A stretch of DNA of 64,000 nt. Source: Haloterrigena salifodinae (lineage in GTDB: Archaea > Halobacteriota > Halobacteria > Halobacteriales > Natrialbaceae). The number at the start of each line of letters is the position of its first letter. Position 1 is the stretch's first letter. Where the stretch lies: assembly GCF_003977755.1 (NCBI RefSeq), contig NZ_RQWN01000002.1, positions 186,001 through 250,000 on the forward strand. Reading direction: 5' to 3'. A program made the translations under genes and the position numbers. The notes under the pieces are model-generated. The model was given only the letters and a program-made list of their open reading frames with translations. It searched no databases and was not told the DNA's origin. Shown piece after piece: positions 34,422-37,781 of the stretch.

Positions 34422-34535
34422 ACTGTGAGTATGGAACGCGGTCGGCAAGAAACTACGGCTAGATAGCTGTGTGCTGTTCGCTCTAGTCATTAGAAGAAAT
34501 AACTAAATGCGGTAAAATGGGTATCTACGGCAAAT

Positions 34536-34916
34536 TCACTCGCCGTTTGTCAATATAACGTTCTTTACTTCTTCCAATAACAAACTACCATCAATATTTA
34601 GGTACCATCTCGGTAGCACAATAAACAGTAATAAGATCAACATGCTAACAGTAGCCCTTTGATTGAACCGGCCTACTGCCTCCAGACGTGGCAATGAATC
34701 AACTATCGAAGTAAACCAGGCCGGGGTAAGACCGACGATGCCGCTGATACTGATGGCACTGAGTAAAATTCCACCGACAATCATCAACATGAGCGCAACT
34801 ATTGAACCGACTTGTCTCTCCGTCTGGGATAATATAGCATCAGAAAACGCTGATATTCCGGCGACACCAATCACGATATAAAATCCCGTTTGTAGTATTG
34901 ATCCCTGGCTCATCAA
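34536..34916 (-). CDS. Small three-helix membrane protein of the AT-rich cassette
   Basis: A 126-residue protein with hydrophobic segments ILQTGFYIVIGVAGISAF, VGSIVALMLMIVGGILLSA and ATVSMLILLLFIVLP, and a short basic/acidic C-terminus. It is the last gene of the ComQ-like cassette, 130 bp after the precursor gene. An immunity, processing or export role is possible from position; sequence alone does not tell. No family recognised. Confidence 0.75.
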   Translation of the reverse strand: MMSQGSILQTGFYIVIGVAGISAFSDAILSQTERQVGSIVALMLMIVGGILLSAISISGIVGLTPAWFTSIVDSLPRLEAVGRFNQRATVSMLILLLFIVLPRWYLNIDGSLLLEEVKNVILTNGE

Positions 34917-35046
34917 CCAAATATAGATGCTTGATCTACTTAAATATTATCCAACCATTAATAATCTATCTGTATTATCATACTTAAAAGTATTATATCA
35001 GTAAGAATGTTGGGTGTTATTATAAATACAGAGATCAATAGAGCGA

Positions 35047-35745
35047 TTAGATCCAGCTATTATTAGGGTTGTCCTGTGGATCCACTTTTGGACCTACCCC
35101 CGGGTAGAGTGTGATACTAACACCGCATCCTTCATTGTTGGCACAAATGACAGCTGCAGAGACACCTGCCGCTGCTGCGACCACCCATGCGGGAACAGCA
35201 CCAGGGCCAGAAATCACACCCGCACCAGATAGCGCTGCTATGATCCCTGTACCTGCACAGACACGACCTGACCAGTAGTTATTTAAATACACTGTCGCGC
35301 TAGGAGGGAGTGTATTAGCACTAAAATCGTTTTTACCACAATCAGAAGCCGCCGGAGTTACGATCGTTGATCGTTGAGCACGGGTAGCCGCGGCAAGATC
35401 TCCTTCGATGTACACAACTCCATCTTTTTCATCGAATTCCAGATGGCTATTATTAACGAGGTCGTTTACTTCCTCTATTCCGTCTTCCAGATTATACCTT
35501 TTCGCTGCTTCTGTAGCAGGTTCAATTTCGGTCCTAACCTTTCTATTGCTTGAGTTTCCAGCTAATTCCAGTTCTCCATTGTCGTTCAATACGATTTCTT
35601 CTGAACCTAATGCAGAACGTTGACTGTTACTTTCTTCAGCCGATGACACCGCGGGTATCACGCCCAAACCAGCGGCTGCAAAGGCACCTGATTTAATTGC
35701 TTTTCGTCTATTCAGCTTATGATCTTCTGTATTATTATCCTTCAT
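35047..35745 (-). CDS. Tat-exported precursor with hydrophobic Cys-containing C-terminal domain (halocin- or pheromone-like candidate)
   Basis: A 232-residue precursor. The N-terminus is a Tat signal (LNRRKAIKSGAFAAAGLG, cleavage likely after AVSSA). Residues ~40-140 are acidic and charged and look like a leader or immunity-type domain. The last ~95 residues contain four Cys (DCGKN, RVCAG, VICANNEGC) around a Gly/Ala-rich hydrophobic stretch (IIAALSGAGVISGPGAVPAWVVAAAAG), and the protein ends NNSWI. Layout (Tat signal, propeptide, Cys-containing hydrophobic peptide) recalls halocin precursors. The gene follows a ComQ-like gene, and Trp231 is next to last, so prenylation of a C-terminal Trp, as in ComX, is a hypothesis only. 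Confidence 0.75.
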   Translation of the reverse strand: MKDNNTEDHKLNRRKAIKSGAFAAAGLGVIPAVSSAEESNSQRSALGSEEIVLNDNGELELAGNSSNRKVRTEIEPATEAAKRYNLEDGIEEVNDLVNNSHLEFDEKDGVVYIEGDLAAATRAQRSTIVTPAASDCGKNDFSANTLPPSATVYLNNYWSGRVCAGTGIIAALSGAGVISGPGAVPAWVVAAAAGVSAAVICANNEGCGVSITLYPGVGPKVDPQDNPNNSWI

Positions 35746-35909
35746 GATGCATCTTATAATAAGTGCTTGCCAATTAAAAATATTACTAATTTAATCAGCT
35801 TAAGTATATGGGAAATTACTGGGAAGTATAGTCGGATTCAGCATATATTGATGAACCAGTCTACCTGGGACCTATATACAGGAACGCACCTATATACAGT
35901 AAATAAACA

Positions 35910-36752
35910 TCATGATGGGTTCCACGATTCGATATCAATTGCTATTAATGGACGGAGGAGTTGCGCACGTTTCTCCGGTAAGTCAGTAACCAATATCTCA
36001 AGTGTTTCTTGCCAACCTGAAATCAGCTCTCTCACCTCTTCTTCGGGGAGAAGATTCCAAGCGTTCCACGGATCCGGATCACCAGCCTTGTACTGTTCTC
36101 CATCTAATATGAATTGGTCGAATTTAAAGTACACATCTCCAAACTTTTCTGCCTTTTCCAAACCAAATTCTCCTGATTCAGATATTATTGACACAATACC
36201 GGCGATAGTGCTGAATATATTTGCTTGCTTTCCAACTATTTCTAAATACCTTTTTCGACTTGGTTTAGATCTTAATTCTTCCATATCTCCTCCCCACATA
36301 GGCATAATATTTCTACAATAGTAATCAATAACACTATCCTCCAGCCTAGTGAGTTGTTGGACAAGTAGTGATTGAAGCAGTTCTTTGCCGATTAAAACGT
36401 TCTTTTTATAGCTATCAATCACATCTCCATCAATCAGATCATCTACTATATCATAATACTCTATAAATGTAAGTGTAAATGACATTAATTCACTGAGCAA
36501 CTCTCCGTTAGAATGTGACAAATACAACTGTTTAGTGATAAAGGGGAATGTAAGCATTGGTTTGTAATTTCTTTTCGGGAATATATCGCTAGAAGAAAAA
36601 GCCAACGATCTAATGTATTCTCTCTTCTCTTTCCGGTCGATCTCACTGAGGATATCTTCTATATAATAATCGATTTCGCTTTGAAAAGCAGTTATCTCTT
36701 TCTGGAATTGGTATAGATCTTCTTCTGACAAATATGTTGGTTTCCTGTACAT
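35910..36752 (-). CDS. ComQ-like isoprenyl diphosphate synthase homologue
   Basis: A 280-residue all-helical protein with trans-prenyltransferase landmarks in the right order. Lys60-Arg61 to Pro65 (PKRNYKPML) matches the GGKRxRP site. The first Asp-rich motif DDLID spans 104-108 inside EYYDIVDDLIDGD, strikingly like the DIMDDLEDED of Bacillus ComQ as I recall it. Lys175 in EIVGKQANIF matches the KT site. The second Asp-rich region FKFDQFILD (209-217) is partly degenerate. The family makes or uses isoprenyl diphosphates; ComQ prenylates the ComX peptide. The next gene in the transcript encodes an exported precursor. The start ATG is at 36752, preceded by AT-rich promoter-like DNA. An ordinary lipid-prenyl synthase is less likely given the divergence and context. 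Confidence 0.75.
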   Translation of the reverse strand: MYRKPTYLSEEDLYQFQKEITAFQSEIDYYIEDILSEIDRKEKREYIRSLAFSSSDIFPKRNYKPMLTFPFITKQLYLSHSNGELLSELMSFTLTFIEYYDIVDDLIDGDVIDSYKKNVLIGKELLQSLLVQQLTRLEDSVIDYYCRNIMPMWGGDMEELRSKPSRKRYLEIVGKQANIFSTIAGIVSIISESGEFGLEKAEKFGDVYFKFDQFILDGEQYKAGDPDPWNAWNLLPEEEVRELISGWQETLEILVTDLPEKRAQLLRPLIAIDIESWNPS

Positions 36753-36917
36753 CGGAATAGGATTTATTTGCTGCTATATTATATCTTACTGTATGAGGTA
36801 AGTAAAAAATACTAAGTAATGTATCTCACCACGTGGTCTAAGTACTATGTGTTAATTTATTAAATTAATATATAAAATCAGTCATGCTGGTGGTAATTCC
36901 CGGATATGTGAACTTGG

Positions 36918-37781
36918 CTACTGATGAAGTCGGTGTCGGGCTATCATCACCTCGTCGACGTACTCGTCGTCGATGCGGTACTGCTCCTTGTGGACGCCCT
37001 CGCGCTGCCAGCCGTTCTCCTCGAGGAACTCGATGGCGGTTTCGTTGGTCGCCGGCAGGTTCTGGTAACACTTCCGGTACCCGGCGTCACTGGCCCACTC
37101 GAGGCCGTACTCGAGGAGGCTCGAGCCGATCCCCTTGCGGCGGAACTCGGGCGCGACGCCGAGCGTGAGTTCGGCGGTGTGGGAAAGCGACGGCAGTTCG
37201 TGGGTGTCGACGTGGAGCCAGCCGACGACGCCGGATTCGGTCTCTGCGTCGTCGTCGTCCGATTCGTCGGTCGCCTCGTCGGCCGCCGACTCGAGACTCG
37301 CGACGAAACAGACCCGCGAACGCTCCTCGTTGGCCCGCACGAGCGCCGAGTCGCGCTCGAGTCGCGTCGCGACGTTCTCGGCGACGATGTAGGGCCCTTT
37401 GTCGGCGACCTCGCGCATCGTCTCGACGATCCCCTCGCGGTCTTCTTCCCGCGCCGGTCGAACCGTGACGGTGGCGTCCTCGAGGGCCAGTTCGGTCGCC
37501 GTTCCGCCGAGCGCGAGGCGGACCTTGCCGTCGGATTCGGTCAGATACCCCCGGTCCGTGAGCCTCTCGATGCAGGACTCGAGGTCCTCGGCGGGCGGAC
37601 AGACCGATTCGGTGTAGGTGCCGGATCGGGCCGGTTTCGAGTGGGTCGTTCCCGATTCGATGCGGATCGCGCGCGCGAGTTCGGCCGGTTCGACGGCCCC
37701 GTTTCGTTCGACGTACTCGTAGACCGTCCGTTCCAGTTCGTCGTCGAGATCCTCGGGCGACATCCGCGGCTGGGCGCTCAT
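36918..37781 (-). CDS. GNAT-family N-acetyltransferase with N-terminal winged-helix-like region
   Basis: A 287-residue protein. Residues ~1-95 look like a small winged-helix or helical domain (LDDELERTVYEYVERNGAVEPAELARAIRIESG... CIERLTDRGYLTES). The GNAT domain follows: TVRPAREEDREGIVETMREV, the acidic low-complexity insert ESAADEATDESDDDDAETE, then AELTLGVAPEFRRKGIGSSLLEYGLEWA with the R-x-x-G-I-G acetyl-CoA loop, and EENGWQREGV. Start at 37781 (MSAQPRMSPEDL). Substrate unknown. Its stop codon lies at the right border of the AT-rich island. Confidence 0.85.
   Translation of the reverse strand: MSAQPRMSPEDLDDELERTVYEYVERNGAVEPAELARAIRIESGTTHSKPARSGTYTESVCPPAEDLESCIERLTDRGYLTESDGKVRLALGGTATELALEDATVTVRPAREEDREGIVETMREVADKGPYIVAENVATRLERDSALVRANEERSRVCFVASLESAADEATDESDDDDAETESGVVGWLHVDTHELPSLSHTAELTLGVAPEFRRKGIGSSLLEYGLEWASDAGYRKCYQNLPATNETAIEFLEENGWQREGVHKEQYRIDDEYVDEVMIARHRLHQ

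Follow-up and report, generated by a model that had tools for sequence, protein, structure and literature searches.

A haloarchaeal gene cassette that pairs a prenyl-synthase-like enzyme with an exported, tryptophan-tailed precursor

Introduction

What does a prenyl-synthase-like enzyme act upon when its gene lies next to that of an exported precursor? The question is raised by a small cassette in a 64,000-nucleotide stretch of the Haloterrigena salifodinae genome (hereafter the window; contig NZ_RQWN01000002.1), which encodes such an enzyme, a precursor with a twin-arginine translocation (Tat) leader and a small membrane protein. An earlier note on this DNA had placed the three genes in this order on the minus strand of an AT-rich island; order, strand, coordinates and island are all confirmed by the sequence, the island having a GC content of 39.9% compared to 64.9% for the whole window (~40% vs ~65%). 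Based on sequence comparisons and a structural model, we propose that the enzyme very probably attaches a prenyl group to the terminal Trp of the precursor encoded next to it, acting as a C-terminal tryptophan prenyltransferase.

Results

The enzyme has an isoprenoid synthase fold and an altered second Asp motif

The AlphaFold2 model of the enzyme (predicted local distance difference test score, pLDDT, 91; predicted template modelling score, pTM, 0.89) displays the isoprenyl-synthase fold that the earlier note had anticipated. Structural similarity search using Foldseek gave a best E-value of 2e-5 with a template modelling score of 0.74, and all 50 matches listed are structures of the prenyl-synthase superfamily. 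Superposition over the full length against isoprenyl diphosphate synthases (IDSs) yielded a Z of 23 and a root mean square deviation of 2.6 over 252 aligned residues. Both hallmarks of the isoprenoid synthase fold superfamily (IPR008949), the all-helical fold and the DDxxD motif, are present. Profile comparisons point the same way, with E-values of 1.6e-8 against IDS sequences in the PDB and 3e-5 by hhalign against three IDSs of the same genome.

Searches of the window proteins against Pfam, NCBIfam and PHROGs, and a single-sequence search against the PDB, gave no useful match. The window enzyme belongs to no Pfam family, and only a sub-threshold match to geranylgeranyl diphosphate synthase in NCBIfam points in the right direction. 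It stays below the gathering threshold of PF00348 and is assigned to 0 families, and a weak polyprenyl_synt match appears in 2/11 members (best E 0.0016). Judged by these searches, the enzyme founds an undescribed haloarchaeal family for which neither Pfam nor NCBIfam holds a model.

Whole-genome searches recovered homologues that are spread patchily over at least four haloarchaeal families, in ~15 genomes, two of the homologues being fragments at contig ends; 11 clear cases were found in 391 sampled genomes. A contig scan, confined to a single motif, gave matches in haloarchaea alone, namely Haloarchaeobius iranensis, Halorhabdus salina and a Haloarcula metagenome-assembled genome. Weak partial matches (19-36 bits) in G258, G021, G438, G218 and other members of the phylum were regarded as noise or as ordinary isoprenoid synthases and left out of the count. 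Relatives were found neither in IMG/VR, searched with the enzyme alignment (A1), nor in phages or plasmids, so there is no sign that the enzyme travels on a known virus or plasmid.

Alignment A1 contains 25 invariant columns, including K60, R61, D101, D104, D105, D108, Q176, Q213, D217 and Q220. The homologues, these columns and the fold show that the observation is not due to chance. The motifs KRNYKP, DIVDDLIDGD and EIVGKQ (residues 171-176) lie exactly where the earlier note had put them, and the second Asp region is degenerate, as it had said. This second motif reads QxxxDxxQ: the first and third Asp are lost and the second is kept, and the lone Asp and its upstream Gln are found in 11/11 members. 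The ungapped alignment from the profile search of PDB sequences sets Q213 on the Gln of FQIxDD, whereas hhalign introduces a gap in this helix and arrives at another register; the ungapped register is preferred, as it accommodates the Gln as well as the conserved G205. Compared to the three canonical synthases of the same genome, the enzyme has also lost the RRG that follows the first Asp-rich motif and the Lys of KTx. In farnesyl diphosphate synthase, the RRG, the Lys of KTx and the second Asp motif are the parts that handle isopentenyl diphosphate. Chain elongation by the enzyme is unlikely because these parts are lost.

A terminal Trp accompanies the enzyme in two precursor families

A survey of the homologues' neighbourhoods revealed that the pairing suggested by the earlier note recurs: a Tat precursor adjoins the enzyme in seven loci besides the window, and in 8/8 such loci the neighbour ends in Trp or in Trp plus one residue. 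The background is ~3/184 genes with a terminal Trp in the fetched neighbourhoods.

Most of these neighbours belong to a family, here termed type A, in which a Tat leader is followed by a propeptide and a Cys-rich C-terminal part. The enzyme-adjacent type-A precursors end in CPGW, NDGW, NDGW, CGWL, CGWW, GVGW, GGGW, TCGW and CSNW. Trp is thus last or second last in 9/9 of them, compared to 3/44 distinct non-adjacent members (Fisher p ~1e-8, computed with 10/10 adjacent members, one of which is a truncated duplicate). The only non-adjacent type-A member with Trp as its last residue (L092, ECGW) lies in a genome that carries the enzyme (G207), and the other two end in TWC and DWC.

Type A (L063-L107), a family both large and undescribed, comprises Tat-exported proteins whose C-terminal parts are rich in Cys; it occurs in 60/382 haloarchaeal genomes, often in several copies per genome, and its C-termini are highly variable. 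At one locus (L016:7206-9499 (+)), three tandem precursors ending in NDGW, NDGW and CGWL stand by a single enzyme gene. An ECGW-ending precursor of G207 (L134:6137-6832 (-)) is unlinked to the enzyme present elsewhere in that genome and is a possible substrate in trans.

The window precursor represents another family, type B, which consists of a Tat leader, a short propeptide and a hydrophobic Gly/Ala-rich core. Its C-terminal end NNSWI and its Tat motif RRKAIK are as the earlier note gave them. Seven type-B homologues, all from genomes without a detected enzyme, end in ..PQ, ..AQ or ..TR, and among the type-B members compared only the window copy has the tail DNPNNSWI. Alignment of types A and B is poor beyond the Tat leader; homology between them was considered and rejected, and they are treated as separate families. 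By this comparison, a second, unrelated precursor family has gained a terminal Trp exactly beside the enzyme, which makes two independent gains. The gain of the type-B tail is the strongest single argument for Trp as the substrate. The structure model of the window precursor is poor (pLDDT 58), and a PDB search with it gave no matches. Its lone match in IMG/VR (L014), on a phage-like contig, was taken as spurious.

Short candidate precursors occur at other enzyme loci

Several enzyme genes neighbour short open reading frames (ORFs), which are less certain than the Tat precursors, some having been sought by their ends. At two loci of one genus (L022 and L024), a convergent 34-residue ORF lies by the enzyme, with the C-termini LAPW and LGVW and 59% identity over 22 residues. 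Short ORFs near three closely related enzymes (L023:2488-2613 (-), L029:2808-2963 (+) and L056:3975-4094 (+)) have the leader N[VI]D[YF]xADLxxR in common and end in HC, AC and DWF, respectively. A further locus (L055:2607-8654) combines two divergent enzyme copies with an ABC transporter ATPase, a membrane protein that has an HExxH-like motif, and an ORF of 42 residues whose Trp lies internally.

The cassette is a discrete unit with a putative immunity gene

In two sister species (G295 and G181), whose flanking genes are 90-95% identical to those of the window, these genes are separated by only ~32 and ~54 bp, compared to ~2.49 kb in the window. The island is a discrete inserted or lost cassette, because its flanking genes nearly abut in these two species. 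The window contains no tRNA, and convincing repeats were not found on either side of the island. The features are compiled in Table 1.

Table 1. Position and basis of the cassette features (window coordinates)
Feature	Position	Strand	Basis
AT-rich inserted cassette	34459..36944 (edges approximate)		sister-species comparison and GC
Small membrane protein, 125 aa from ATG, ~3 transmembrane segments, putative immunity protein	34536..34916	-	sister-species orphan; type-B neighbours
Tat-exported precursor, 232 aa	35047..35745	-	sequence, homologues
Tat motif RRKAIK, residues 13-18	35692..35709	-	sequence; RR kept in most homologues
Presumed mature region, residues 136-232 from C136, hydrophobic Gly/Ala-rich core, four Cys	35050..35340	-	boundary inferred from conservation
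Extra C-terminal tail DNPNNSWI, residues 225-232; W231 is the predicted prenylation site	35050..35073	-	absent from seven homologues
Putative C-terminal tryptophan prenyltransferase, 280 aa, trans-isoprenyl-diphosphate-synthase fold	35910..36752	-	homologues, alignment, fold, profiles
KRNYKP, residues 60-65, counterpart of GGKRxRP	36558..36575	-	K60, R61, P65 invariant
DIVDDLIDGD, residues 101-110, first Asp-rich motif DDxxD (D104, D105, D108)	36423..36452	-	invariant, 11 homologues
QFILDGEQ, residues 213-220, pseudo second Asp motif	36093..36116	-	Q213, lone D217 and Q220 invariant

The membrane-protein ORF begins TTG-ATG, and translation more likely starts from the ATG (34913). Its product has no kinase domain. 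At most type-B loci, six of seven or more, a membrane protein of 58-128 residues lies close to the precursor, as judged from those scanned, and L127-L133 contain seven such proteins. Two further sister species (G356 and G196) have ~600 bp at the insertion site, a stretch of host-like GC that keeps only the membrane protein (L141:3448-3828 (-) and L143); the copy of G356 is 49% identical to that of the window. G295 and G181 have neither the membrane gene nor the cassette at this site. By analogy, the precursor and the small membrane protein fit the layout of a bacteriocin with its immunity protein. The occurrence of putative producer, immune-only and empty states fits a halocin with immunity better than a pheromone. 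None of 10 precursors matched the halocin family models of NCBIfam at E 0.1.

Discussion

A proposed mechanism and the points that weigh against it

We propose that the enzyme, in the cytoplasm, uses its DDxxD motif to bind an isoprenyl diphosphate of C10-C20, as its fold and motifs suggest, and that the prenyl group would be transferred to the C-terminal Trp of the precursor in place of addition to isopentenyl diphosphate. By comparison with ComQ and PalQ, the altered second Asp motif would determine this choice of acceptor. Given its twin-arginine leader, the modified precursor would then be exported by Tat. Outside the cell, a protease may free the hydrophobic, Cys-bearing C-terminal part together with its lipid tail. 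The product would act on the membranes of related archaea, from which the small membrane protein may shield the producer. From the sequences at hand, the assignment of the product as a lipidated halocin with an immunity protein appears finely balanced. More tentatively, the loci may form a haloarchaeal peptide-prenylation system, in which a single enzyme family adds a lipid to the C-terminal Trp in several exported peptide families that are unrelated and gained this Trp separately, and in which the L023/L029 sub-branch has perhaps moved to a C-terminal Cys.

Several observations weigh against this proposal. Passage of a lipid-tailed, Cys-bearing protein through the Tat system is a difficulty for the mechanism. 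ComQ retains a single Asp of its second motif, the second one, which is essential and has to be preceded by Asn or Gly (PMC5331326), whereas the archaeal family has Leu, Arg, Val or Thr at this first position of the pseudo second motif in 11/11 members. A single added Ala abolishes PalQ activity (PMC10853753), and the window Trp is penultimate. In the L023 and L029 subclade the adjacent short peptide lacks Trp and ends in Cys; judging from these ends, the sub-branch may have shifted its acceptor from Trp to the C-terminal Cys. The membrane gene could be an unrelated neighbour, and the sister species might have retained an unrelated gene.

Other readings of the cassette

The enzyme could be an ordinary isoprenyl diphosphate or terpene synthase that lies beside the precursor by coincidence. 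This would agree with the fold, which is that of the IDSs, and with the weak polyprenyl_synt matches in two members. It is nevertheless very improbable, as the loss of the RRG, the Lys of KTx and the first and third Asp of the second motif makes isopentenyl diphosphate chemistry unlikely, the genome already has three canonical IDSs, and in each of two precursor families the terminal Trp varies together with the enzyme. A peptide-modifying enzyme might instead act on another residue such as Cys and use the terminal Trp merely as a recognition tag. The many Cys of the precursors and the Cys-ending, Trp-less short peptides of L023 and L029 would agree with this, whereas the residue that appears together with the enzyme is Trp, not Cys, and the characterised trans-IDS-like peptide prenyltransferases all modify Trp (PMC13290415); we consider it quite improbable.

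If Trp is indeed prenylated, the lipid might chiefly tether the exported protein to the cell surface and so replace a transmembrane or sortase anchor. C-terminal lipid anchors exist in archaea (archaeosortase), and such a role would suit the two Tat-exported families, unrelated to each other, whose Trp lies at the extreme C-terminus. An anchor alone does not lead one to expect small membrane genes by the type-B precursors or sister genomes with the membrane gene only, and we regard it as rather unlikely. The prenylated peptide could also be a cell-density signal like ComX, since the enzymology is shared with ComQ/ComX and PalQ/PalX, where the cluster holds a histidine kinase gene. Yet no sensor kinase or response regulator was seen adjacent to the enzyme in the neighbourhoods listed, where no profile search for kinases was made, and neither ComP nor ComA was found among 10 neighbours examined by Pfam or in the listed neighbourhoods. 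Moreover, most precursors resemble halocins in being large and either Cys-rich or hydrophobic, and the adjacent membrane protein has ~3 segments without a kinase domain. A signalling role is therefore improbable. Of the two products that the earlier note had offered, pheromone or halocin, the neighbourhood favours the halocin, and the case for the pheromone is weak.

Significance of a proposed Trp-prenylating archaeal branch

In the open-licence literature searched, peptide Trp prenylation is described only in bacteria. A published census places comQXPA in Firmicutes only (PMC4008528), and a 2025 survey of archaeal ribosomally synthesized and post-translationally modified peptides (RiPPs) does not mention prenylation (PMC12144867). 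No archaeal ComQ, prenylated peptide or prenylated haloarchaeal RiPP was found in this literature, and a report outside it is possible. If true, the archaeal branch would extend Trp prenylation to Tat-exported protein precursors, give archaea a class of lipidated halocins and supply high-salt enzymes for short C-terminal tags, GW or SWI for example. Owing to the tail that the window precursor has gained, the predicted substrate can be tested directly on one peptide (VDPQDNPNNSWI).

Comparison with known systems

Compared to canonical IDSs (PF00348), the enzyme shares the fold and the first Asp motif but shows only ~13% identity over the structural alignment, in addition to the losses in the RRG, KTx and second Asp motif. 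The likenesses to ComQ (IPR033965) and PalQ described below rest on published descriptions of the two.

The earlier note had called the locus a ComQ-ComX-like cassette. The pairing of a prenyl-synthase-like enzyme with an exported, Trp-tailed precursor stands, whereas a strict ComQ-ComX identity does not, given the residue in front of the lone Asp of the pseudo second motif, the size of the precursor and the ComP and ComA genes not seen. Like ComQ, the archaeal family keeps DDxxD and has its second motif reduced to the second Asp (D217, invariant). As in comQ-comX, the enzyme gene precedes the precursor gene and a Trp lies near the precursor C-terminus; ComQ accepts Trp at the second to fourth position from the end in vitro, a range that includes the penultimate Trp of the window. 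The archaeal precursors are mostly Tat-exported proteins of 200-270 residues, compared to the 55-residue ComX peptides, and the ComP kinase and ComA regulator of comQXPA were not seen at the archaeal loci in the neighbourhoods listed.

The PalQ-PalX pair of Paenibacillus alvei likewise combines a trans-IDS-like enzyme with an adjacent precursor that has a conserved C-terminal Trp. A model of PalQ has Q197 bind the NH of the indole; the first motif of PalQ comprises D89/D93 and the second D200 and D204 (PMC10853753). The archaeal family also has a Gln upstream of the second Asp motif (Q213, invariant, cf. Q197), a feature that canonical IDSs have as well, and its spacing from the first Asp motif to this Gln is 108-111, compared to 108 in PalQ (D89 to Q197). 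The two differ in the second-motif Asp, which lies at Q+4 in the archaeal family and at Q+3 and Q+7 in PalQ, and in the precursor, which has an NHLP leader in PalX and is a Tat-exported, protein-sized chain in archaea. In addition, the window Trp is followed by Ile, and no kinase gene was seen at the archaeal loci. By analogy, the archaeal enzyme would be ComQ- and PalQ-like in action, and we claim membership of neither family for it.

The halocins HalC8 and HalH4 are C-terminal peptides released from their precursors by proteolysis, according to the account cited in PMC12893001. The archaeal precursors resemble them in carrying a C-terminal peptide that would be released; they differ in having no sequence match to a halocin family model and in the lipidation enzyme that is attached to the cassette.
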